From Hymenobacter pini (GTDB lineage: Bacteria; Bacteroidota; Bacteroidia; Cytophagales; Hymenobacteraceae), in contig NZ_JAIZZH010000002.1 in assembly GCF_020421205.1 (NCBI RefSeq), forward strand, positions 248,001 through 312,000: 64,000 bases of DNA, given 5' to 3'. Of the stretch, positions 32,224-62,701 are shown piece after piece. Position numbers and translations under genes: made by a program. How positions within the stretch are numbered: position 1 is the first letter of the stretch; every line of letters begins with the position of its first letter. The notes beneath the pieces were generated by a model that searched no databases, was not told where the DNA came from, and saw nothing but the letters and a program-made list of their open reading frames with translations.

Positions 32224-32601
32224 TCAGTTACGCGAGCGGGTCGCCCGGGCCGGCGCGGGCGCGGGGGCGGCCGCGCCCAGATTCAGGGAACTCAGGTCGA
32301 AGTCCAGGCCCTGGCCGAAGGCGGCCAGCGCCGGCCAGGGAATGCTGGGCTGAGTGGGGCTAAACCAGTAGGCCTGCAGCGTGATGGTAGCGCCTTGCCG
32401 GCCGGCCTTGCCCTTGTGCAGCCAGCGCTGCACGGTGGCCCGGCTCACGCCGCAGTGCTCCATGACCTGCTCAATGCTCAGCAGGCGGGGCAGCGGCGTG
32501 CCGCCGGTGGGCAGCGCCTGCTGCAGCTGCTCCAGGCGGGCGAGCAGGGCCTGAAAGTGCTCGGCAATGAAGCCGGTAGAGGCAATGTCCGTGAGGTGCA
32601 T
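32224..32601 (-). CDS. MerR/excisionase-type HTH protein
   Basis: 125 residues. The first 40 form a helix; then LLSIEQVMEHCGVSRATVQRWLHKGKA is an HTH of the excisionase/helix-turn-helix 17 type. The C-terminus is Pro/Ala-rich and basic. In mobile elements such proteins regulate excision or replication. First gene of the minus-strand operon that ends at 30794. Confidence 0.8.
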   Translation of the reverse strand: MHLTDIASTGFIAEHFQALLARLEQLQQALPTGGTPLPRLLSIEQVMEHCGVSRATVQRWLHKGKAGRQGATITLQAYWFSPTQPSIPWPALAAFGQGLDFDLSSLNLGAAAPAPAPARATRSRN

Positions 32602-35507: not shown

Positions 35508-35539
35508 TCCAGAGAAATAATTTCCAATTGCTCACAAAT

Positions 35540-35953
35540 ATGAGCCAAGAGACTATAAGTCAGCGCCTTTCAATTCTCATCAAGGCTTTAGGTCTGAATC
35601 CTAGAAGCTTCAGCGAGAAATTTGGTGTGAATGAGGGCACTACCAGAGGATATACAACTAGAGGTTCTGTCCCCAATGCTGACTACATAGCTACACTTCT
35701 CCGAGCAATTGAGCATTTGAACCCAGCTTGGCTCCTACTCGGCCGTGGCGAGATGTTTCTCGATGGATCGGCCGAGGTGCAGGTGGTGGATGCGAAACGC
35801 GGGGGTGCGCTGGCGGAGCTGGAGAAGGAACTTGCTACCGTACGCAGGGAGAATGAGCAACTGAAGGCACTCATAGCCGCGAAGGATGACCTGATTGCGG
35901 CTAAGGAGGAAGTACTAACGCTGCTGCGTAGCTCCAAAAACTTACGCAGCTGA
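35540..35953 (+). CDS. XRE-family phage-type repressor with coiled-coil tail
   Basis: 137 residues. The HTH fills residues 5-65 (ETISQRLSILIKALGLNPRS, VNEGTTRGYTTRGSVPNADYIATLLRA). It ends with a coiled coil (LEKELATVRRENEQLKALIAAK). The Met at 35540 is preferred over the one four codons upstream. The stop overlaps the next gene's start. The 3' end, from codon 109, has a second copy at 36380, see that entry. Confidence 0.85.
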   Translation: MSQETISQRLSILIKALGLNPRSFSEKFGVNEGTTRGYTTRGSVPNADYIATLLRAIEHLNPAWLLLGRGEMFLDGSAEVQVVDAKRGGALAELEKELATVRRENEQLKALIAAKDDLIAAKEEVLTLLRSSKNLRS

Positions 35954-36741: not shown

Positions 36742-37749
36742 ATGGAGCCAAGTGTTAAAACCGAGCCAAGACAGAAGTTAGTTACATTCATCGGGGATTA
36801 TTTAGACCGAACTTCCTATAAGGTCATTGCATTTATCATAGCCGGCATTATCCTATCCAGCGCCTTTCTATTTTGGGTCTTAGGTGCTGCCAAATTAGCT
36901 AGTCAAGCAGATCCTGTATGTTTTCTAGATGCGCTGTACTTCAGCGTTATCACTTTTACCTCCCTAGGCTATGGTGACATAGCACCCATTGGTGCAGGAA
37001 AAATAATTGCTGCGCTAGAAGTGCTTAGTGGCCTTGTGTTTATTGCTGTTCTAGTAGGGAAGTTAGCGTCTGAACGGCAAGCAGCACTTCTATTACTCGT
37101 CTACACAAGTGAGCAGCAGCACCGCTTATCTGCCTTCTCAAAAGGCATCCAGGCTTATGATATCAAGCTTAATAAGGATGCAAACAATTATGAGCATGAA
37201 AAACTAAATAAACATTCCAAAGCGCTTTATAAGTATATAACAGGTCTACAACTCTACCTCGAATTTCAATCAAATGAGGGCCGTCTTGCCTCATTTGGCA
37301 ATACATCTACACTTACTAAGCTTTATAAGCGTTTTCTCTCCTTATATATAACTACGCTTGACATCCTTTTCACTGCTGGTATAGAGCCGAAGACGTACCG
37401 GAAGTTGGAGCGCATACTCAATCGTATGTCAAGAATTAGTTCGGGAATGAAGAAATTTCATAGTGCCGACGAACACGCAACTGCGTTGTTTAATGAACTC
37501 GAAAATCAGAGATTACGACTCGTCAAATGGAATAATCTTAGAGCCCAGAATAAGGAAGCTAGTATGTTCTTTGATCGCCCCAACCCAACAAAACGGTTGG
37601 TCAAAAAGGTAGAGGCATTGAACCCAATATTTCCCTGGGACAGAGATTTAGACAAATTTATAGCATCGGAACTCCGCATTCCCAGGAGGCTTGCAGGTAG
37701 ATGTCTTGATATTATTAGGAAGAAAAATAACTACCAGTACCCAGAATAG
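36742..37749 (+). CDS. Two-TM potassium channel with large cytoplasmic domain
   Basis: 335 residues. TM1 is at about 28-50, a pore helix and selectivity filter TSLGYGD at 73-79, TM2 at 88-107. This is the Ion_trans_2 pattern. The rest (about 225 residues) is soluble, helical and basic, without an RCK domain I can recognise. AT-rich against its neighbours, so probably acquired. Two-TM channels fused to sensing domains occur in phage-defence islands; that role is plausible but not shown. Confidence 0.9.
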   Translation: MEPSVKTEPRQKLVTFIGDYLDRTSYKVIAFIIAGIILSSAFLFWVLGAAKLASQADPVCFLDALYFSVITFTSLGYGDIAPIGAGKIIAALEVLSGLVFIAVLVGKLASERQAALLLLVYTSEQQHRLSAFSKGIQAYDIKLNKDANNYEHEKLNKHSKALYKYITGLQLYLEFQSNEGRLASFGNTSTLTKLYKRFLSLYITTLDILFTAGIEPKTYRKLERILNRMSRISSGMKKFHSADEHATALFNELENQRLRLVKWNNLRAQNKEASMFFDRPNPTKRLVKKVEALNPIFPWDRDLDKFIASELRIPRRLAGRCLDIIRKKNNYQYPE

Positions 37750-38723: not shown

Positions 38724-39098
38724 ATGAATTCCTATATTGCCCGAGTAGTACTCCATCGCACGGATGGCAGCGACGACTATGCGGACTTACACGCCGAGAT
38801 GCTGAAGATTGGATTTCGGCGTGACATTGAGGATCAAGAGAAGGTCAAGTATCGACTGCCATCAGGCACGTACCACTATGACGTAGCCAGGCCTGTTTCT
38901 GGTGTTCAACACAGAAGCATTGACGCGGTCTATAACAGCGTTAAGGCAGCAATTGAAAAGGTGATGGAGGATGAGACACTCTACATCAGACAGGCTAATA
39001 GGCCGCCATCCATCCTGATTTCGCAGGCGGATGAGACTACTTGGAGCGGCCTTGCCCCCTTACCCACCCCGAAGATACTGCCTAGGAGAAAGAGCTAG
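38724..39098 (+). CDS. DUF2622/GhoS-like small protein
   Basis: 124 residues. The N-terminal pattern YIARVVLHRTDGSDDYADLH with later GFRRDIEDQEKVKYRLPSGTYHY fits small proteins of the DUF2622 group, which have a ferredoxin-like fold related to Cas2/GhoS. In the group, some are antitoxin ribonucleases; the activity here is open. Its stop overlaps the vsr end by four bases (convergent). Confidence 0.65.
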   Translation: MNSYIARVVLHRTDGSDDYADLHAEMLKIGFRRDIEDQEKVKYRLPSGTYHYDVARPVSGVQHRSIDAVYNSVKAAIEKVMEDETLYIRQANRPPSILISQADETTWSGLAPLPTPKILPRRKS

Positions 39099-39529
39099 GA
39101 TATCTCTCCAACTAGCCTATCCAGGGTCTCCTGCCTGATAGCAGCCTTCAGTTCACACTCCCAGACAACTAAGACCTTCCAGCCAGCCTCACGAAGGGCC
39201 TGCTGATGACGCTGGTCACGAGCTACGTTTCCCTTGAGCTTCGCTTCCCATTTCTCCGGATTCGTGCGCGGCTTACCTGGGCGAATATTACACTGTTCCC
39301 CATGCCAGTGCCAAAAGCAGCCTTGTACAAAGATGACAGTCCGACGACTTGGAAATACTATATCAGGCTTTCCTGGAAGCCTAGGATCATGCAGTCTATA
39401 GCGGTAACCTAATCCATGAAGATAGTGTCGCACCAACATTTCCGGCTTTGTGTCCTTGCTGCGAATTTTACCCATCAGGTTACTTCGCTCAATAGGTGTA
39501 AGATTCGCAAAGGGGGCGTTCGGCTGCAT
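39095..39529 (-). CDS. vsr: Vsr endonuclease (very short patch repair type)
   Basis: 144-residue endonuclease that nicks T:G mismatches arising from deaminated 5-methylcytosine. The family N-terminus is MGKIRSKDTKPEMLVR; the catalytic Asp is in LPGKPDIVFPSRR, followed by FVQGCFWHWHGEQC, in which Cys and His bind zinc. The C-terminus has GWKVLVVWECEL. Divergent from the GHKL gene and about 2.6 kb from the methyltransferase of the same set. In plain form it is a mismatch enzyme; in island gene sets like this it can serve as restriction nuclease. Confidence 0.95.
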   Translation of the reverse strand: MQPNAPFANLTPIERSNLMGKIRSKDTKPEMLVRHYLHGLGYRYRLHDPRLPGKPDIVFPSRRTVIFVQGCFWHWHGEQCNIRPGKPRTNPEKWEAKLKGNVARDQRHQQALREAGWKVLVVWECELKAAIRQETLDRLVGEIS

Positions 39530-39595
39530 AGAATAAAAACAAAAAAACGAGACTGCTAATTCCCAACTCAGGCCTAACTAAATTAATATAAGCAC
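39530..39595. promoter_or_regulatory. Divergent promoter region of the defence cluster
   Basis: Only 66 bases between vsr and the ATPase gene, strongly AT-rich. It should hold both promoters. No clear palindrome. Confidence 0.5.
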
Positions 39596-41101
39596 ATGCC
39601 CACTACTGATGCCAACGCAAATACCTTGATAAGGGATGCTGAACAAGACCCGAAGAAAATTGATGGCCGGCCGTTCAAGGATTTCTTCATCAACATGCTA
39701 ATAAGGGACTTACAACTTCATGATGCTATCGCAGATCTGGTTGACAACTCTGTGGATGCGGCACGCGCACTTGTTGCAGAAGATATCGAAGGCCCCACTA
39801 CTCCCGAACAAAGACTGAGAAGCTTCAGGCTTGACAATTTGGAAGTCAATATCACAACTGCTCCTGATGAGTTTGTAATTCAAGATAACTGCGGTGGGAT
39901 GGAAGCATCTGTTGCTCGCAACAGAGCATTCAGGTTTGGTAGAGATCCAGAAGCAGAGCATACGCCTGGATCAGTTGGCCGATTTGGCATCGGGATGAAG
40001 CGGGCCTTATTCAAAATTGGCCGTAATATCCATGTTAAGTCGGTTGCCGAGCACTCTGACTTCATTTTAAAGATCAATGTGGATAATTGGGCCAGCCCCG
40101 ATATGCAAAACGATTGGGGATTTGAATTTTCTACTCTGCGTGAAACCAGTGATAGTGCGCCTATCAACAACCCATTAAACAAGCGCGGATTAAAAATTAA
40201 AATAACAGATCTTAATCCAGATGTATCACAAAGATTTGGAGACGATTCAGTATCCAGCGAAAATGGAACAACATTCGAATCTGATTTAGGCAATAGACTC
40301 AGCTCGCAGAATTTATTTAATATTAACAGAGGCTTGAAAATAAGCATAAATGGCTCAGAATTAAACACTAAACATATGGATATTAAATCCAGCGATGAGT
40401 TTAATGCTGGGCAATTTACTACAACTCAAACAGTGAAAAATGAAAATAATGAAGATGTAGAAGTACAGATTCATTTAATAGTTGGCCTCAGCGATGCAGT
40501 ATTGGAAGAGGGAGGGTGGTATATCTTCTGTAACGACCGTCTTGTTGTCGGGCCAGAGCAATCCTGGCGGACTGGTTGGACAGGTAAAGGTGGTGATGGT
40601 TTCGCCAAATATCATGGCCAGTTTTCTAGATTTAGAGGATATGCATTCTTCACAAGCGTTGATGCTTCGGTTCTGCCTTGGACGACTACCAAAACTGATT
40701 TGGATATGGACTCACGCCTGTATCTGGCAGTACGTGCTAAAATGATAGAAATGTCCGATCCTGTCATTACATTTTTAAATCAGCTTAAAGCTGAAAGAGA
40801 AGGAGGTGAAGATGTTAACCCTTCTTCAAATTGGGTCATGAATCAGAAGGTTGAAGAAGCTCCATCAGTTAGCCTAGTGCAAATTGTGAGTGCTCCTCAA
40901 GACACTCGAGATGGGGATTTCAGTGCCCCAACGCCAACGCCAAGAGCTAAGCCAGCCAAAACCGAGCAATCAATTCAGTATTCAATATCCAAGAGCAAAG
41001 CCGATAAGGTGAAACGCAAACTCGGCTTGAGCTCCTATAGAGAAGTAGGTCAAATGACCTTCGACTATTACTATCGTTACGAAATAGAAAAAGTAGGATA
41101 G
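39596..41101 (+). CDS. GHKL (HSP90/MutL/MORC-like) ATPase
   Basis: 501 residues. N-terminal ATPase with three motifs: IADLVDNSVDAARAL at 45-59, VIQDNCGGM at 94-102, and GRFGIGMKRALFKIG at 128-142. A second domain follows, then a C-terminal helix pair. Such MutL-like ATPases are found in restriction-modification islands together with Vsr-type nucleases and cytosine methylases. It is AT-rich and starts an operon with the next two genes. Works as a clamp or sensor of DNA; direct role unknown. Confidence 0.9.
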   Translation: MPTTDANANTLIRDAEQDPKKIDGRPFKDFFINMLIRDLQLHDAIADLVDNSVDAARALVAEDIEGPTTPEQRLRSFRLDNLEVNITTAPDEFVIQDNCGGMEASVARNRAFRFGRDPEAEHTPGSVGRFGIGMKRALFKIGRNIHVKSVAEHSDFILKINVDNWASPDMQNDWGFEFSTLRETSDSAPINNPLNKRGLKIKITDLNPDVSQRFGDDSVSSENGTTFESDLGNRLSSQNLFNINRGLKISINGSELNTKHMDIKSSDEFNAGQFTTTQTVKNENNEDVEVQIHLIVGLSDAVLEEGGWYIFCNDRLVVGPEQSWRTGWTGKGGDGFAKYHGQFSRFRGYAFFTSVDASVLPWTTTKTDLDMDSRLYLAVRAKMIEMSDPVITFLNQLKAEREGGEDVNPSSNWVMNQKVEEAPSVSLVQIVSAPQDTRDGDFSAPTPTPRAKPAKTEQSIQYSISKSKADKVKRKLGLSSYREVGQMTFDYYYRYEIEKVG

Positions 41102-41102
41102 T

Positions 41103-42116
41103 ATGCTTAATCATGAGGCTGTTAATTATCGTCTGCGTCCAGCAAAAGGCGCGGAAAGAAAAATGCTATGCGAAATCATGGCACGATTAAGTGTATTTGG
41201 TAGATTAGAAGAATACTTGTATATAGGATTTGGATCTATTTATTTCACCGATTACCTTCTATTCCATAGAATATTAGGAATAAATAATATGCATAGCATT
41301 GAGCAAGAAATTACTGATGAGCCGGACGAATTCACAGTTAATCGATATGAATTCAATCGTCCTTATTCGTGCGTCAATATACATTTCGGCACAGCCACAG
41401 AGCATCTGCCAAGAATGCCATGGCGTACGGGTAAGGCGATAGTATGGCTTGATTATGTTAAGGGCCTAAAAAATGATTTTATACATGATCTTCGCATAGC
41501 TACTCAACGAGCACTACCTGGCTCTTTCTTACTAATCACTGTCAATGTAGAAGCAGAGACCTTACCAGGTGCTACTCCTGAACAACAAGAAGCTTACAGG
41601 TATAAACAGTTAACGAAGCGGCTCAATGGCAAGTATATTCCCGCGGGCACTGATAAGAAGGCCTTATCAACCCCTGAATTAGTAGAACTGTATCACGGCA
41701 TTTTAACTGGCGTAATTAATGAGTCGTTGAATGCACGTAACGGGCTTGCAAAAGAGGAAAACAAAATCGTAGCTCATCAAGTGGTAAATATCCAGTACGC
41801 CGATGGCCCGACCATGGTGACATTCGGCTGGATACTTGTAAGCAAAAAGGATACTGAAACCTTTGATAAAGCAGGCTTTAAGGACATTGGCTTCTATCGA
41901 CCTAGCTTCGAGCCGTTTGTCGTGAGTATTCCAAACCTCACTATCAAGGAGCTAGGCTGGCTGGAATCCATGATCCACTCTGTGCGAATAGATGACGATG
42001 ATAATGTTACCTATGAGAGCATTATTGGGAAGGCACCAGCTCTTGATGCAGCAGATATTAGGATGTATAGGCAGATTTACCGCTATTTTCCGACCTTCGC
42101 AGAAGCAATTTTGTGA
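41103..42116 (+). CDS. Unknown protein with Rossmann-like start (possible methyltransferase fold)
   Basis: 337 residues. The pattern LEEYLYIGFGSIYFTDYLLFHR then MHSIEQE resembles motif I of a nucleotide-binding or methyltransferase fold, followed by IVWLDYVKGL in the position of the catalytic strand. It lacks an NPPY-type motif. The start lies one base after the ATPase stop and the stop four bases before the methyltransferase start, so it is part of the system. The most interesting unknown of the cluster. Confidence 0.6.
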   Translation: MLNHEAVNYRLRPAKGAERKMLCEIMARLSVFGRLEEYLYIGFGSIYFTDYLLFHRILGINNMHSIEQEITDEPDEFTVNRYEFNRPYSCVNIHFGTATEHLPRMPWRTGKAIVWLDYVKGLKNDFIHDLRIATQRALPGSFLLITVNVEAETLPGATPEQQEAYRYKQLTKRLNGKYIPAGTDKKALSTPELVELYHGILTGVINESLNARNGLAKEENKIVAHQVVNIQYADGPTMVTFGWILVSKKDTETFDKAGFKDIGFYRPSFEPFVVSIPNLTIKELGWLESMIHSVRIDDDDNVTYESIIGKAPALDAADIRMYRQIYRYFPTFAEAIL

Positions 42117-42120
42117 GTAA

Positions 42121-43404
42121 ATGTTGGAACTCTCTGTAGTAGATGTCTTTGCTGGCGCGGGCGGGTTCAGCGAGGGCTTTCGCCTCGCTGGATACGAGGT
42201 TCGCGCCTGCGTAGAAATAGACAAGTGGGCGGCGCAGACGCTGCGCCGCAACTTTCCCAAGGCAACCATAATTGAGGAGGATATCCGGAAGGTATCTACG
42301 CGTGAGAAAGTCCGGGCGCTGGTAGGCCAGCGCCCGGACGTCATCATCGGTGGGCCACCCTGCCAGGGGTTTAGCATGGCTGGCCCGGTAAAGAATCCCA
42401 ACGACCCTCGCAACTCGCTCTTCAATAACTTCGCCAGCTGGGTGGATGCCCTTCGTCCATCCGTGTTCGTGCTGGAGAACGTGTATGGCCTGCTTTACCG
42501 AGCCAATGAGAGTGGTGAGCAGGTTATCGACGTGATTCGCCGGACCTTTCAGGACCTGGAGTATCATGTTACGGTCTGGCAGCTGAACGCCGCGCAGTAT
42601 GGGGTACCACAGCTCAGGCAGCGCGTATTTATCGTTGGCTCGCTGGCCGCGCCCATCGAGCAGCCCCCGCGCCCCACGCACTACCTACCCGTTGCGGAGG
42701 GCCAGCTGCGCTTCGACGCGGATCTGCTACCGCCCGTCACCGTGTGGGACGCCCTATCAGACCTGCCTCAGATCAGTGCCGGGGAGGGAGCTGACGTACT
42801 GCCTAGCTACGGCATGCGCGCCAGCACTCCCTACCAGCGGTGGGCGCGACGCGGTAGCCGGAAGGTATATAACCATGAGGCCATGAAGCACACCAAGCGC
42901 CTGGTGGAGCGCTTCCGGCTGATCCAGAGCGGCACGGCCCTAGCGGAGATGGAGGAACAGTACCGCGTATTCAGGCGCGGCGCTAGCGGGGAGCTCTCCG
43001 CTGCCACGTACAGCTCCAATTACCGACACCTGCGACCTGGGATGGTTTCCTATACCATCCCGGCCTCCTTCTACTCCACCTTCATTCATCCTACCCTTCC
43101 CCGTAACCTGACGGCCAGGGAGGCTGCGCGCCTGCAGTCATTTCCTGACACCTATGTCTTCTGTGGCAAGCGCACGCAGGTATCCAGCAAGCTGCTCAAG
43201 AGCAAGGGGCGAGAGGATGAGAACTACCTGTCCCAGTATAACCAGGTAGGCAACGCCGTGCCCCCACTCCTATCAATGGCTATTGCCCAGCATGTGCAGG
43301 CACACATTGAGCAGGTCATGGGCACGACCTGTGAGGTTGAGATGCCCGCTGTCCAGCCCGAGCTGACCCTGGCGGCCAGCGGGCGGGAGGAAATCGCGGC
43401 GTAG
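42121..43404 (+). CDS. DNA (cytosine-5-)-methyltransferase
   Basis: 427-residue enzyme that methylates cytosine C5. Motif I VDVFAGAGGFSEGF (7-20), catalytic Cys81 in GGPPCQGFS, motif VI LENVYG (119-123 region), motif VIII QYGVPQLRQRVFIVG, and motif X QYNQVGNAVPPLL near the end. The variable region (target recognition) is between about 215 and 330. It is GC-rich, unlike the two genes in front, hinting that parts of the cluster have different origins. Protects host DNA for the associated nuclease system. Confidence 0.95.
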   Translation: MLELSVVDVFAGAGGFSEGFRLAGYEVRACVEIDKWAAQTLRRNFPKATIIEEDIRKVSTREKVRALVGQRPDVIIGGPPCQGFSMAGPVKNPNDPRNSLFNNFASWVDALRPSVFVLENVYGLLYRANESGEQVIDVIRRTFQDLEYHVTVWQLNAAQYGVPQLRQRVFIVGSLAAPIEQPPRPTHYLPVAEGQLRFDADLLPPVTVWDALSDLPQISAGEGADVLPSYGMRASTPYQRWARRGSRKVYNHEAMKHTKRLVERFRLIQSGTALAEMEEQYRVFRRGASGELSAATYSSNYRHLRPGMVSYTIPASFYSTFIHPTLPRNLTAREAARLQSFPDTYVFCGKRTQVSSKLLKSKGREDENYLSQYNQVGNAVPPLLSMAIAQHVQAHIEQVMGTTCEVEMPAVQPELTLAASGREEIAA

Positions 43405-45370: not shown

Positions 45371-46705
45371 ATGGAAGTCACGTACCAGCTGCGCACGGAG
45401 CGGTTGTCCAAGAAAAAGGGCACCGCCCCTATTCAGATTACCTTCTGGTGGGATAACCGGCGGCTGCGCCTGAGCTCCGGCGAGTACTGCCGGCCGGCTG
45501 ACTGGAACGGCAAAACGGGCCGGGTGAAGGATAAGCCCGGCGCGTACGCCGACGCCATCAACCAGGTGCTCAGCCGCTGGAACCAGGCCGGCCAGGAAGC
45601 CCACCAGGAAGCGCGGCGCAACTGGCTGCGCCTGGATGAGCAGCAGATGGAGGATGCCCTACGCACGCGCTACCAGCAGCTGCTGGCCGAGGCCCGGGGC
45701 CTCACGCCGGCGGAGCTGCCAATACCGGTGCGCCGGCACGTGAGCCTGCTGGAGTACATGGACCAGTGGTGCGACTTTATGGAGAGCGTGGTCTCGGAGA
45801 AAACCGGCCGCCGGTTCAGCACCGGCTACCTGCGCCAGCTCCGCCACGTGCGCCAGGAGCTGGACAACTTCAGCCAGCAGCAGAAGTACCCGCTCACCTT
45901 CCAGAGCATGAATGCGGATTTCTACGCGAAGTTCCTCACCTACCAGGTAGAGGTGCTGGATAACGGCACCAACACGTTTGCCGGCTACATCAAGCGCATG
46001 AAGCAGTTTCTGTACTGGTGCGAAGACCGGGAGCTGCCCACCACGCCCAAGTTTCACGACTGGAAGGCCCGCGAAACCTACGTCGGGGCCGATTTTCTCA
46101 CCGCCGCCGAGCTGCGCCGCTGGGAGCAGGTCGAGCTGGATACCCCGGCCGTGGCGGCCCGCCTGCTGGAGGCCTTCCCCTTGAGCACGGGCACCCACGG
46201 CCGGCGCAAGCTCACCCTGCAGGATCACCTGCAGCGCCTGCAGCACGCCCGCGACAAGTTCCTGCTCTGCGCCTATACCGGCCTGCGCATCTCCGACGCC
46301 GACAGGCTCGCCCCCGAGCACATTCAGGGTGACCTGATCAAGCTGGAAGCCGGCAAAACCGGCATTCTCTGCTACATCCCCTTCCTGGACGATGAGGTGC
46401 TCAAGCCGGTGCAGCTGGTAGAGCAGTACGCCGGCCAGGGCCTGGCCACGTGCCTGCCCGCCACCTACGACCTGGACGAGTACCTGCCCCACATTGCCCA
46501 GCTCGCCGGCATCACGCGCCTGCACGTGACCTCGCGCATCGGCCGCAAAACCTTCGTGACCACGCGCATCTACCAGGGCGTGCCGCGCACCCAGGTGATG
46601 CTGGCCACCGGCCACCAGACCGAAAAGAGCTTCCTGCGCTACCTGGGCACCAACGAGAAAGAACTGGTCGAAAGCTACCGACGCGTGGCCAAACTGGCCG
46701 CCTGA
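45371..46705 (+). CDS. Tyrosine recombinase/integrase
   Basis: 444-residue integrase of Bacteroidota type: N-terminal arm-binding domain, core-binding domain (SLLEYMDQWCDFM), and catalytic domain. Catalytic Arg306 (TGLRISDADRL), Lys329, Arg392 in SRIGRKTFVTT, His415 (TGHQTEKS) and nucleophile Tyr424 (FLRYLG). The first His of the usual HxxR is Arg389 here. Three GGTGGCGG repeats follow its stop. Likely the recombinase of one of the two elements. Confidence 0.93.
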   Translation: MEVTYQLRTERLSKKKGTAPIQITFWWDNRRLRLSSGEYCRPADWNGKTGRVKDKPGAYADAINQVLSRWNQAGQEAHQEARRNWLRLDEQQMEDALRTRYQQLLAEARGLTPAELPIPVRRHVSLLEYMDQWCDFMESVVSEKTGRRFSTGYLRQLRHVRQELDNFSQQQKYPLTFQSMNADFYAKFLTYQVEVLDNGTNTFAGYIKRMKQFLYWCEDRELPTTPKFHDWKARETYVGADFLTAAELRRWEQVELDTPAVAARLLEAFPLSTGTHGRRKLTLQDHLQRLQHARDKFLLCAYTGLRISDADRLAPEHIQGDLIKLEAGKTGILCYIPFLDDEVLKPVQLVEQYAGQGLATCLPATYDLDEYLPHIAQLAGITRLHVTSRIGRKTFVTTRIYQGVPRTQVMLATGHQTEKSFLRYLGTNEKELVESYRRVAKLAA

Positions 46706-49703: not shown

Positions 49704-52700
49704 TTACTTGATTTCAGCTTGCTTCCGGGTGGCCTCCCGTTCCTCCAGTATCCGCTCCAGCAGATGCACGTCCAGGTGCACGCCCAGCTCGCGGGCCCAC
49801 TGCTCCACGTCCTGCAAGCGTAGGTCCAGGCGGCGCAGCACGTCCACCAGCTGCTGGTCGGCCGAGGCCCCGCTGCCGGCGGCCGGCTCTACGTCGCCCG
49901 AGGTGGAGCCACCTTGGCGGAAGCCCGGGCCGCCGAGGCGCTTCTGCTCCAGCCATTGCTCGACCTGCACCACCTGCGGGTCGGCACGCATCCACTCCGG
50001 AATCACGTACTCATTCTCGTGCACGACGCCGGCAATCGGGAAACCCTCCGGATCCAGGAGCTTACCGCTGCTGCCCACGCTCAGGCCCGAGCCGGTGGCT
50101 CCCCCCTTGCGGAAGCCCAGGCCCAGGATTTTGCTGATACCCACGCCGGCGGCCGCGGTGGAGGCAATGTTGGCTCCGATGGTGTAGGCCGTGCCCAGGG
50201 CAATCGTAGCCGGCGGCGCCAGGGCCGAAATCTTGGCCCCAGCCTCGGCGTTGGCCGCATACTGCTTGGGCACGCTCATGCCGATTTCGGCAATGGCCAG
50301 CGCCTTCTGCGCCGCCACCCCGGCTTTATAGAGGATAGTCTTTTTGTTGGTCATCTCCAGCAGCGCGTTGAATTCATCGGAATTCAGCAGCCGGCGGGCG
50401 GCGGTGAGACCCTTCTCGATTTTATAGTACCCCTCATCCATGCCCTTGCGAGAGGCTAGGAAGTCCGCTTGGTTCCGGAGCTTCTCGGCCTGGAGCTTCT
50501 TATACTCGGCCGACTCCTCCCCGCCCTTCTGCTTGACCAGTTCCAGCTCCCGCTCCAGGGCCGCCTGCTTCACGGCGTACACTGCATCCTGAAAGGCCCA
50601 CTCATCCATAACGCCATTGGCCAGCTTTACCTCCAGCTCCGCTAGGCGCTGTTCTTCGTCAGCCTGGGCCCCGGCGATGCGCTTGTCCAGCTCCTCCTGT
50701 TTCTTTTTCTCCGACTCGGCATCGAAGGTAGCCTGCAACTCGCGTAGCTTCAGGTCGCGCGCCAGCAGGATATCCTCCACGCGCTGCGAGTAATCATTCT
50801 CCAGCCCGGTGAGTTTATCGACCTGCGCGCTGGCGTCCTGGAAGATTTTCTGCCGCTGCTCCTCGCGCCGCAGCTGCTCATCCGTATAGCCTTTCTGGTC
50901 CAGCTGGCTGCGCAGGGCGTCGCGGCCGCTGAATACAACTAACTCGTCTTTTACCAGCCGCTTCAGATCATCCAGGTGCTGCTGGTCGGCTTTGTCCTGG
51001 GCGGCTTTGGCTTCCTTGCGTGCCTTCTCACGGGCCGCCTGGGCCTCCTTGGCGGCTTTCTCGCGCTGCTCCTTGGTCGTGCCGTCGCCGCCGGCGCCAG
51101 GCCGGGTATCGGGCGCATCGCCCCCATCCTGGCTGGTGGCCGCCGCCTCGGCAGGGCGGGCCGCCCGGGTAGCATCAAACGCTTTCAGGTAGGCGCGGCC
51201 GGCGGCGCCCCCGATTTTATTGAACTCATCGACGGCACCGCTGATGTCGCCGGCCAGCACCGCTTTCCACGCCCGACCCACCTGGGTGAACGAGGCCCGG
51301 GCCGCGGCCGAGAAACCCTCAAAGAACGCCGGCGAGTCGCGCAGCATGTCAAAGAGCAGCCGCAGCGGGGCAATCATCAGGTAGATGACCGCCCGGGCGT
51401 CACTGGAGCTTTTCACCCACTCGATGGTGGACTTGGCCATGGCGGCAAACGCCTCGTAGCCCAGCCGCAGGGGCGTGAGCAGCAGGCGCAGTACGGCCCC
51501 GATGCCGCTGGCAATATCCTTGACCAGGCTGCCCTCCTTGCTGACCAGGCCCATGCTCTCGCCCAGCTCCAGCAGCTCCTGCCACACCTCCTGCACTGGC
51601 GCGTACAGTTCCTTGAACGTGGCCCCGAGCGAGGCCAGCAGCGTGTAGAGGAAGGTCATCGACTCATTGGTGAGAATATCGATGCTGTTGCCGGTGCCCT
51701 CAAACTGCTTGGTCAGCTCGTTCTGGGCCTCCGCCAGGTCGCGCTGCGAGCTGAGCAGGGCCTGCTGCTGGCGCACGTAGGGGTTGGTCTGATCGATGAG
51801 CGTTTCCACCCCGCCCCCGATGTTCTTCAGCGACTGCAAATACTCCAGGCCGGCATCTTCGCCCGGACCGCCGAACACGTCGGCAATGACGGTTTGCAGC
51901 TGCGAAGCCGGAATCTTGGTGTCGTTCATCTGCGTCGACACCAGTTGCAGGGCCTGCACCGACGAAATGGAGCCGTCATTGATGCCCTTGAACAGCTTCT
52001 GAGTAAACTCAGTACCGAAGGCCGCCTCCATGGCGTCGCCGGTGGCCTTGGTCTGCTCCCGGATCCGCAGGCCGAACTCCTTTACCACGTCGGCCCCCTT
52101 ATCGGAAAACACGCCCGAGGTCTGGGACTTGGTGACAATGCCGATGAATTCAGAGGCCGACACGCCGGCGGCCTTGAACTGGGCGGGGTATTCCTTCACC
52201 TGGTCGAGGAACTCGCCGTTCACGTCGGCACCGGCCACAAAGCCCTGCTCCAGCAACTTGAGCGCCTCCTTCTGGGAAATACCCATCTGCTTGCTCAGCG
52301 CGTTGCTGGCCACCAGCACTTCGTTGTATTCCTTACCGAAGGTTTGCGAGAGGGCGCGCACGCCCACGGTCAGCTCATCCAGCTCGGTGCCAGTGGCGCC
52401 GGTGAGCGAGTTGATATCGGCGCGCATCTTGCCGATTTCCTTCGTGGTGTTAATCACCTCGGCACCCAGCTCCTTAATCATGTCCAGGGCGGCCTCGGCT
52501 GTGACGGCCACGCCGGCGAAAGCAAGGGCATCCTTGAAGGTCAGGGCCGGCTCAGCAGCCTCACCCAACTCCTTCTTCACGCCCTCAATCCGCTCTTTCA
52601 GTTCTTTGTAGTCCTGAATCAGCTTCGCCCGGCCCGGGTCGTTGGCCGCCACTTCGTCCAGTTGCTTCTCCAACTGGGCAGCAGCTGCCTTCATTTGCCC

Positions 52701-53291
52701 GAAGGTAGCCTCCACTTTCTGGCCATTCAGGATAACCTGGCGGTTTTCCTGGTTCATGCGCTCGGTGGCCTCGGCGAGTTGCCGCTGCTCTTCGGCCAGT
52801 TCCTCGGCCGTTTTCTGGTAGGTACGCATTTCCGTACCAGCAGCCTGGATACGCTGCTGAAGTACCTGGTAGTCGCGCAGCAGGGCGGCCCGGCCCGGGT
52901 CGTCGGCCGATACCTCTTCCAGCTGCTTGGCCAGAATGCCGGCGGCATCCTTCATCTCACGCATTGATGCCGACGACTGCTGGCCTGTGCGCACGGTCGC
53001 CGCCTGAGACTGGGCCAGCTGCTCGGCCTGCTCCGCCAGCTGCTGCTGCTCAGCCGCCAGCTCCTCGGCCGTTTTCACGACGAGGCGCATTTCGGCGCGG
53101 GTTTCCTGGATACGTTGGTTCAGGCGGGCATAATCATCCTGCAACTTGGCCCGGCCGGGGTCATCGGCCGCCATTTTGGACAATTGACTATTGAGCACGC
53201 CCAAGCCTGCCGCCATCTCTTTGAGACTGGCGTTGGGCTGCTGCGCGTCGACGACAATCTTAACTTTCCGCTCTTCGGGGGTCTCCGCCAT
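49704..53291 (-). CDS. Phage tail tape-measure protein
   Basis: 1195 residues; sets the tail length and enters the host cell with the DNA. N-terminal three repeats with period about 87 residues, each containing DDPGRA (at 43, 130 and 218) and, in the first two, KTAEELA. The TP901-type core (about 250-560) has GATGTELDELTVGVRALSQ and hydrophobic stretches. Further coiled coils follow. C-terminus carries the usual GxxxGG-type end (VHENEYVIPEWM, FRQGGST). Last structural gene. Confidence 0.95.
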   Translation of the reverse strand: MAETPEERKVKIVVDAQQPNASLKEMAAGLGVLNSQLSKMAADDPGRAKLQDDYARLNQRIQETRAEMRLVVKTAEELAAEQQQLAEQAEQLAQSQAATVRTGQQSSASMREMKDAAGILAKQLEEVSADDPGRAALLRDYQVLQQRIQAAGTEMRTYQKTAEELAEEQRQLAEATERMNQENRQVILNGQKVEATFGQMKAAAAQLEKQLDEVAANDPGRAKLIQDYKELKERIEGVKKELGEAAEPALTFKDALAFAGVAVTAEAALDMIKELGAEVINTTKEIGKMRADINSLTGATGTELDELTVGVRALSQTFGKEYNEVLVASNALSKQMGISQKEALKLLEQGFVAGADVNGEFLDQVKEYPAQFKAAGVSASEFIGIVTKSQTSGVFSDKGADVVKEFGLRIREQTKATGDAMEAAFGTEFTQKLFKGINDGSISSVQALQLVSTQMNDTKIPASQLQTVIADVFGGPGEDAGLEYLQSLKNIGGGVETLIDQTNPYVRQQQALLSSQRDLAEAQNELTKQFEGTGNSIDILTNESMTFLYTLLASLGATFKELYAPVQEVWQELLELGESMGLVSKEGSLVKDIASGIGAVLRLLLTPLRLGYEAFAAMAKSTIEWVKSSSDARAVIYLMIAPLRLLFDMLRDSPAFFEGFSAAARASFTQVGRAWKAVLAGDISGAVDEFNKIGGAAGRAYLKAFDATRAARPAEAAATSQDGGDAPDTRPGAGGDGTTKEQREKAAKEAQAAREKARKEAKAAQDKADQQHLDDLKRLVKDELVVFSGRDALRSQLDQKGYTDEQLRREEQRQKIFQDASAQVDKLTGLENDYSQRVEDILLARDLKLRELQATFDAESEKKKQEELDKRIAGAQADEEQRLAELEVKLANGVMDEWAFQDAVYAVKQAALERELELVKQKGGEESAEYKKLQAEKLRNQADFLASRKGMDEGYYKIEKGLTAARRLLNSDEFNALLEMTNKKTILYKAGVAAQKALAIAEIGMSVPKQYAANAEAGAKISALAPPATIALGTAYTIGANIASTAAAGVGISKILGLGFRKGGATGSGLSVGSSGKLLDPEGFPIAGVVHENEYVIPEWMRADPQVVQVEQWLEQKRLGGPGFRQGGSTSGDVEPAAGSGASADQQLVDVLRRLDLRLQDVEQWARELGVHLDVHLLERILEEREATRKQAEIK

Positions 53292-61198: not shown

Positions 61199-61603
61199 TT
61201 ATTTGCGCCAGGGCTTCAGCCAGCAGACCAGGCTAATAGCACCCAGAACTACCAAGCCAATCGTCAGCTGCTGGCCGGTAATCCCCTCCTGCACAGTACT
61301 GGTGGTTTCCGGGTTACCAACATTCTTCAGCTTCACTTTGCGGGCAGCCGGCGCATTCACGTTGGCCAGGGCCTGGGTCTGGGCGGCCACCCACTTCTCC
61401 CGCTGCTTCGGCGTGGCCGCCGGCGGCGGCGGCACCAGGTACGCCGGCAGCTGGGCCTGCGTCTGCAGCTGCTCGGGCGTGGGCGCCGCCACCAGGGGCG
61501 GCACCTCCCGAGTGGCCGCGCAGCCGGCGGCCAGGTAGAAGATCAGCAGGATGAAAGCAATCAGGGCCCAATCCCGGAATTTGAGTTCTTTTAGTGCATT
61601 CAT
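61199..61603 (-). CDS. Small lysis-associated membrane protein (spanin-like)
   Basis: 134 residues. One N-terminal membrane helix with a lipobox-like Cys (LIFYLAAGCAATR), then a Pro/Gln-rich, helical part (LQTQAQLPAYLVPP, KQREKWVAAQTQAL) and a second hydrophobic stretch at the end (LTIGLVVLGAISLVCWL). This topology fits an inner/outer membrane linking (spanin-like) role. Overlaps the endolysin by four bases. Confidence 0.65.
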   Translation of the reverse strand: MNALKELKFRDWALIAFILLIFYLAAGCAATREVPPLVAAPTPEQLQTQAQLPAYLVPPPPAATPKQREKWVAAQTQALANVNAPAARKVKLKNVGNPETTSTVQEGITGQQLTIGLVVLGAISLVCWLKPWRK

Positions 61604-62160
61604 GACGCCGCCGGTTTAGGAACTACACCACCCGGAATGCCCAGGGCCTTGGCGGCCACCAGGAACCGGTTCATTCGGTCCGCATATCCGTTGGTGCCCC
61701 CGTTGATGCGCTTGGTGATGGTATCGAAGAAGTTGCCGTCGGCCAGCTCATTGAGGTTGCGGCTGTTCCAGTACCAGCCGGCCGACATGGCGGCATGCAG
61801 GGGCTGCTCCAGCAGCAGCGGGTTGGCAATGAAGTCCACGTTGAACGCCTTGCTCAGGGCGAAGTAGTTGGCCCGGCCGGTAATCTGAATCAGACCGCGG
61901 CCGCGGAACTTCACCCCGTCCCCTTTGTAGACGTTGCCCAGATCTTTGCGGCCCTCGTAGGCCGCGCCGGAGGCATATTCGCGCACGGCATCCAGGCCGC
62001 AGGACTCGTGGCCAATCTGGGCCAGGAAGTGGGCCACGCGCAGGGGCGTGTCAATTTTAAACACCGCCAAGGTGGTGTTGATGGCGCCGAGGAACTTGTC
62101 GGCCTCGGCGGCGGTGGTGCCCACCAGGGCAGCCATCAGCAGTTGTTTGGTCAGCTGCAT
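61600..62160 (-). CDS. GH19-type endolysin
   Basis: 186 residues from MQLTKQLL; the upstream Met of the longer frame is in the holin overlap. Cell-wall hydrolase of the GH19 (chitinase-fold) family. Catalytic Glu in FLAQIGHESCGLDAV, a second acidic in YEGRKDLGN, and FRGRGLIQITGRANY. No signal peptide, so it depends on the holin. Confidence 0.9.
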   Translation of the reverse strand: MQLTKQLLMAALVGTTAAEADKFLGAINTTLAVFKIDTPLRVAHFLAQIGHESCGLDAVREYASGAAYEGRKDLGNVYKGDGVKFRGRGLIQITGRANYFALSKAFNVDFIANPLLLEQPLHAAMSAGWYWNSRNLNELADGNFFDTITKRINGGTNGYADRMNRFLVAAKALGIPGGVVPKPAAS

Positions 62161-62170
62161 ACAGTAAAAT

Positions 62171-62701
62171 TTAACCAATGGAAACGTCTCGAACAGGTGG
62201 CTCCGGCAGGGCCGTACTCAGCTCAGCATCCGGCACCGCCAGCAGCTCCTCGGGCGGTATTTTGCTGCGGAACTGGCCGGTTTCTTCCCAGTCCTGCATG
62301 CCCTTGCGCAGAAACTTGGGCAGCGGCAGGCCGGCTCCTCCCAGGTTGCGCAGGTTCTCATCGATGCTCTTCGTTTCGATGATCAGGATGAAGAAGTAGA
62401 TGGCCCCCTTGAAGCCGATGGCCAGGTAGGGCGCCAGGGGCAGCGGCTGGCCATCGACCTGCACCGAGCTGAGCACGTGGGCTACTACCAGGCCCACGGC
62501 GTAGTCGCGCAGCTTGGTGAACATCTGACGCATACCCCGGGAGTGGAAGCGCCCCTGCCGGAAGCTGCGCACCATGCCCAGGCTGGTATCGAGCAGAAAC
62601 AGCACCATCAGAAACACCAGGGCATTCCAGTCGCTGAACACGTATTTTTCAATGAAGCGGGCCCCCATTTCCAGCGCCGGCGGCAGTAGTAAAGTCAGCA
62701 T
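62171..62701 (-). CDS. Phage holin (Phage_holin_4-like)
   Basis: 176 residues, with membrane helices at about 25-40, 75-90 and 98-115 (ALVFLMVLFLLDTSLG, AIGFKGAIYFFILIIETKS). The sequence ETKSIDENLRNLGG with following PLP is typical of the holin_4 family. Opens the inner membrane for the endolysin. Overlaps the neighbouring gene by one base. Confidence 0.85.
   Translation of the reverse strand: MLTLLLPPALEMGARFIEKYVFSDWNALVFLMVLFLLDTSLGMVRSFRQGRFHSRGMRQMFTKLRDYAVGLVVAHVLSSVQVDGQPLPLAPYLAIGFKGAIYFFILIIETKSIDENLRNLGGAGLPLPKFLRKGMQDWEETGQFRSKIPPEELLAVPDAELSTALPEPPVRDVSIG

Follow-up and report, generated by a model that had tools for sequence, protein, structure and literature searches.

Do the genes for a Vsr mismatch endonuclease, a GHKL ATPase, a 337-residue protein and a C5-cytosine DNA methylase that lie clustered in Hymenobacter pini form one system, and, if so, what does the 337-residue protein contribute to it? 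The cluster was analysed within a stretch of 64,000 nucleotides (hereafter the window). An open reading frame check recovered four packed genes, those on the plus strand being separated by 1 and 4 bases, as described in an earlier note on this DNA, and Pfam profiles confirmed the identities proposed there for the Vsr, ATPase and methylase genes (Table 1).

Table 1 Genes of the cluster and features of the surrounding prophage-like region (window coordinates unless another contig is named).
Feature	Position	Strand	Description
Vsr mismatch endonuclease	39095..39529	-	144 aa; PF03852 3.4e-29, TIGR00632 over cut-off; divergent from ATPase gene
GHKL ATPase	39596..41101	+	501 aa; PF13589 (HATPase_c_3) 3.6e-14; MORC-like head, S5/transducer domain and C-terminal extension
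MT35 (PF20553 Methyltransf_35)	41103..42116	+	337 aa; PF20553 4.4e-86; predicted class I SAM-dependent methyltransferase
C5-cytosine DNA methylase	42121..43404	+	427 aa; PF00145 (DNA_methylase) 4e-62
Excisionase-like	32224-32601		
Repressor-like	35528-35953		
Integrase	45371-46705		
Tape measure	49704-53291		
Endolysin	61600-62178		
Holin	62171-62701		
Terminase	L082:1792-3471		beyond the window

The 337-residue protein had been described as belonging to no known family, which is incorrect: it matches PF20553 (Methyltransf_35, hereafter MT35) at 289 bits, far above the cut-off of 27, and the match spans the whole length, with residues 5–335 aligning to profile positions 4–307 of 309. The Rossmann-like start noted earlier and the guess that the protein is a modifying unit both fit the class I methyltransferase indicated by Pfam and by fold, the AF2 model of 41103–42116 (pLDDT 90) having a class I methyltransferase fold with a C-terminal extension. 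Among solved structures Trm1 matches this model best (Z 14.0 over 215 residues at rmsd 3.9), but RsmD-type enzymes and others score equally well. N-, C- and O-methyltransferases all figure among the nearest folds, and the O-methyltransferase name given to the family comes from annotation. Kinship with Trm1 was rejected, as its first place by fold is shared with other methyltransferases and a profile search of PDB sequences found no relative; a search for a set of Trm1 sequences yielded a single match, below threshold. Within the SAM site, the motif I glycine (G44) is invariant, the motif II acid stands at the end of strand 2 and the motif IV WxDY is conserved, and from these motifs MT35 is likely to be an active methyltransferase. 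It is thus predicted to be a class I methyltransferase whose substrate is not assigned by its family. PADLOC recognises the Vsr and C5 methylase of the window and nothing in the 337-residue protein, and none of 41 MT35 family members matched any of the 5027 models of PADLOC-DB 2023. No mention of PF20553 was found in the literature search.

The ATPase was modelled with a pLDDT of 86, and its nearest solved folds are MORC3 (Z 21.2), MORC4, Hsp90, MORC2 and topo VI-B. The GHKL and S5 motifs are intact, including an invariant D97xGG, GxxGxG and K366, and an aspartate (Asp47) stands at the N-box position of the usual catalytic glutamate, as in 34/35 sequences of the family; the corresponding residue of MutL is Glu29. 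A Pfam scan of the whole protein gave no nuclease match in residues 400–501. The modelled fold thus places this protein among MORC-like GHKL ATPases, with no recognised nuclease.

ATPases of the MORC/paraMORC type have been linked to restriction-modification islands (Iyer, Abhiman and Aravind 2008, PMC2292703), and that work describes GHKL plus S5 ATPases beside C5 methylases and Vsr, with a predicted role in DNA looping. The window ATPase resembles them in gene surroundings and in having MORC3, MORC4 and MORC2 as its closest solved folds. It differs in forming stand-alone units without a recognised SFII helicase or fused nuclease, in having Asp instead of Glu as the N-box acid in nearly all family members, and in its PF20553 partner, which is not mentioned in the passages of PMC2292703 that were consulted. 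We regard the ATPase–MT35 arrangement as a variant of the MORC/paraMORC restriction-modification theme.

A survey of 63 loci (53 found by searching 84,980 genomes with an alignment of five sequences, 4 viral, 3 from a phylum sample, 2 from plasmids and the window itself) placed the ATPase gene directly upstream of MT35 in 62, in bacteria, one archaeon and prophages, with the remaining locus starting at a contig edge. The two genes mostly overlap or lie within 5 bases of each other. The earlier note had staked its proposal on the conservation of the 337-residue gene beside the ATPase in other genomes, and that is what the survey found. PF20553 occurred in only 4 of 395 genomes of the phylum sample, which was drawn without regard to gene pattern, with the ATPase directly upstream in all 4 and no strong ATPase match in the remaining genomes, and 1 of 120 genomes of the window's genus carries the pair. 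Distance matrices of ATPase and MT35 are correlated at 0.99 overall and 0.92 outside DISARM, and among 17 stand-alone C5 loci the correlation was 0.98 for ATPase and MT35 versus 0.60 for MT35 and C5. ATPase and MT35 are therefore obligate partners that co-evolve. No such pair was found in PADLOC-DB, and a literature search covering few subscription-journal papers found it described neither by itself nor with phosphorothioation, DISARM or Vsr.

Base composition separates the same two genes from the methylase. GC content is 0.43 in the ATPase gene and 0.42 in MT35 versus 0.61 in the C5 gene (third-position GC 0.38, 0.38 and 0.74), so that the boundary falls between MT35 and C5, and the step is steeper than at every other stand-alone locus measured. 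This is consistent with the arrival of the ATPase–MT35 pair as one unit, and the earlier suggestion that the operon was assembled from different sources fits both the GC jump and the repeated exchange of modification partner described below. The cluster lies in a prophage-like region (window 28000–64000 and L082), and these surroundings, together with the jump in GC, might be taken to mean that unrelated genes were piled up as prophage cargo and do not make a system. We consider this very improbable, as it is contradicted by the 62/63 adjacency of the survey and by the repetition of ATPase–MT35–C5 in the same order in phage PfAC20, L027, L028 and L074; moreover, the 5.15 Mb genome has no C5 methylase or Vsr gene other than those of the window, which with the recurrent adjacency indicates that the association is not due to chance. 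The proposal that all four genes form one system is supported for ATPase, MT35 and C5, which recur as a unit in the same order in PfAC20, and is not supported for Vsr as a core part.

Vsr follows the methylase. Of the 40 loci that have C5, 23 also have Vsr, compared with 1 of the 23 that lack C5 (Fisher p 2.6e-5), this single locus lying at a contig edge; none of the N4/N6 or Dnd loci has it. This mismatch nicking enzyme has an established role in the repair of deaminated 5-methylcytosine. That it tracks C5 and not the pair argues against Vsr as the effector, and its candidacy as a restriction nuclease was rejected on the same grounds; it is probably a 5-methylcytosine-deamination repair companion of the C5 methylase. 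The window protein keeps the catalytic Asp, the PD motif and FWH, and has Gln at the position of E. coli Vsr His64. An operator repeat was sought in the gap between the Vsr and ATPase genes, where only a 9-base AT-rich palindrome was found.

The C5 methylase, with its motifs FAGAGG, PPCQ, ENV and QLRQR intact, would be the self-marking enzyme. Its best plasmid relative is M.PamI (38%), the modification half of PamI, a functional NcoI-specific restriction-modification system in which it lies beside R.PamI (PMC3925955). The likeness to type II systems (PamI, NotI-like) extends to this modification half; no cognate restriction endonuclease gene was found at the window, and the pair adjoins the methylase instead. 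Elsewhere in the genus, a NotI-family gene comes after one C5 relative (L098), and after another comes a two-HATPase protein (L100) resembling the HEF_HK/Response_reg_2 systems (PMC8011034), which also place an HATPase_c_3 protein beside C5 and Vsr. The window ATPase has only HATPase_c_3, without a second, kinase-like HATPase_c, and its neighbour is PF20553 rather than a response regulator. A different, longer GHKL protein was also observed beside C5 and Vsr in two other places, once adjoining the pair (L069:11477-14400) and once adjoining DISARM without the pair (L079:20218-22212).

While the pair is constant, the modification partner varies across the 63 loci, being a C5 methylase, an N4/N6 methylase, Dnd phosphorothioation genes or a class-I-DISARM-like operon. 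DISARM-like operons account for 28 loci, stand-alone C5 methylases for about 20 (some with Vsr) and an N6_N4_Mtase gene for seven, and L030 has a DGQHR-domain gene. At least 10 partner changes are required on a quick MT35 tree with long branches, and the DISARM loci, being closely related, do not count as independent cases. In the DISARM-like loci the pair lies between the MmeI-like drmMI gene and drmA, the typical order being C5-Vsr-drmD-MmeI-[ATPase-MT35]-drmA-drmB-drmC. Loci of this kind include L017, L018, L034 and L036–L041, often with C5 and Vsr upstream. However, DISARM occurs without the pair (L079), the pair occurs without DISARM, and drmA, drmB, drmC and drmD are all missing around the window genes. 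At two further loci the pair adjoins Dnd modification genes, namely the full dndBCDE set (L024) and dndC, dndD and a DndE–AAA fusion (L021), while neither 20 kb stretch showed DndFGH, the restriction module that usually goes with them, or any DndH-sized gene; the pair may stand in for DndFGH at such loci. The fusion itself (L021:7126-8607) joins a DndE domain to an AAA/HerA-like ATPase. Assignment of the window to DISARM, Dnd or HEF_HK was rejected, as was assignment to MZA, for which the MzaB match was weak (26.8 bits versus a cut-off of 850).

A modification gene lies within 7 kb of the pair in 44 of the 47 loci with long flanks, the exceptions being two Parabeggiatoa genomes and a Gemmataceae MAG (L043, L073 and L042), in which none was found nearby. 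This near-constant companion would be superfluous in pure abortive infection, in which the ATPase would sense infection through unmarked or damaged DNA and release MT35 to methylate host RNA or another host target, so that growth stops. Although the top rank of Trm1, with RsmD-type and other RNA methyltransferases next, and the small, mobile two-gene cassette would suit such a mechanism, methyltransferases of many kinds match MT35 to within one Z unit of each other, and we regard it as improbable.

No recognised restriction endonuclease was found among the window neighbours scanned, and the pair sits where one would be expected; likewise, no nuclease, helicase or other known effector was recognised in the stand-alone three-gene unit. 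A hidden nuclease among recurrent neighbours was considered and rejected, as all-against-all clustering found none common to the stand-alone loci. One N4/N6 locus (L033) has a DUF2161 PD-(D/E)xK gene. Because the pairing is obligate, the two genes co-evolve, their partner is exchangeable, phages carry them and they fill this restriction slot, we favour, with a probability of about one half, the reading in which the pair provides the effector of a modification-gated defence system. The locus would then be a small mobile system of restriction-modification type, in which a two-protein effector replaces the usual restriction endonuclease. The C5 methylase would mark a sequence of host DNA as self, and the MORC-like ATPase, as an ATP-closing dimer, would bind MT35 in one complex that engages DNA without the mark. 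The ATPase might clamp or loop such DNA, and MT35 might use SAM on a nucleic-acid target, leaving the invader unable to replicate or to be expressed, while Vsr would repair the T:G mismatches arising from deamination of 5-methylcytosine. The combination of clamping and methylation is a tentative part of this scheme.

A precedent for the pair as effector is provided by VcSduA, a Shedu protein with a GHKL domain of paraMORC3 type and a fused nuclease, which defends against phage and is a tested GHKL restriction effector (PMC12137116). The likeness lies in the GHKL ATPase, which in VcSduA serves direct anti-phage restriction; VcSduA has its own PD-(D/E)xK nuclease, whereas none was recognised here and MT35 is a separate predicted methyltransferase. 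Several observations count against the effector reading: the stand-alone three-gene unit has no nuclease, helicase or other known effector, DISARM already has effectors where the pair joins it and exists without the pair, and the three loci without a modification gene are awkward if the pair is harmful in the absence of self-marking.

An apparently intact methyltransferase such as MT35 would suit modification and effector roles equally well, and the main rival explanation, which we think possible but doubtful, is that the pair is an auxiliary modification module, in which an ATPase-driven MT35 adds a second mark to the same DNA and any restriction enzyme is unrecognised, elsewhere or absent. 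The conserved SAM-site residues of motifs I, II and IV, the many nucleic-acid methyltransferases among the nearest folds and the carriage of the pair with a C5 methylase by phages, without a recognised nuclease, are all in keeping with it, and the phage three-gene unit would then be pure anti-restriction. However, the pair also joins Dnd and DISARM, both of which have their own modification enzymes, and MORC/paraMORC ATPases are linked to restriction (PMC2292703), one of them being the effector tested in PMC12137116. In addition, an insertion in Sinorhizobium meliloti psymA (L016:5056-8055) splits the ATPase gene from MT35, which is truncated at its N terminus, and C5 and Vsr are still present, as expected if the restriction side is lost first, although this is a single case.

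Each restriction activity is generally seen as matched to a modification activity, whereas here a two-gene unit is constant and its partner changes. As these partners comprise three chemistries and two large defence systems, one effector might recognise several kinds of self mark, or simply the lack of one. A more specific version of the effector reading, which we put forward with considerable reserve, is that of a portable, nuclease-free effector, in which a MORC-type clamp and a dedicated methyltransferase silence or trap DNA lacking a 5mC, N4/N6 or phosphorothioate mark. If true, eukaryotic MORC silencing would have a counterpart in bacteria, and DISARM, Dnd and simple methylases would share a general "restriction cartridge". 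As far as the literature searched goes, the survey also points to the pair as an unrecognised optional part of class-I DISARM.

PfAC20, a filamentous phage of Pseudomonas, has exactly ATPase–MT35–C5 as cargo, its C5 gene having been scored as an incomplete defence system by its authors (PMC11878078), and L074, L076 and L077 lie in viral contigs; a viral scan with a single protein query gave no match. These cases suggest that some "orphan" or "incomplete" methylases of prophages are complete systems, and either PfAC20 or the window offers a minimal three-gene test object for prokaryotic MORC-like ATPases. In the prophage-like region of the window, the low-GC cargo stretch that holds the pair also encodes an Ion_trans_2 potassium-channel-like protein (36742–37749), and a UmuC-like polymerase (IMS, DUF4113) with an S24 peptidase (UmuD-like) lies convergent with the C5 gene (43431–45205).
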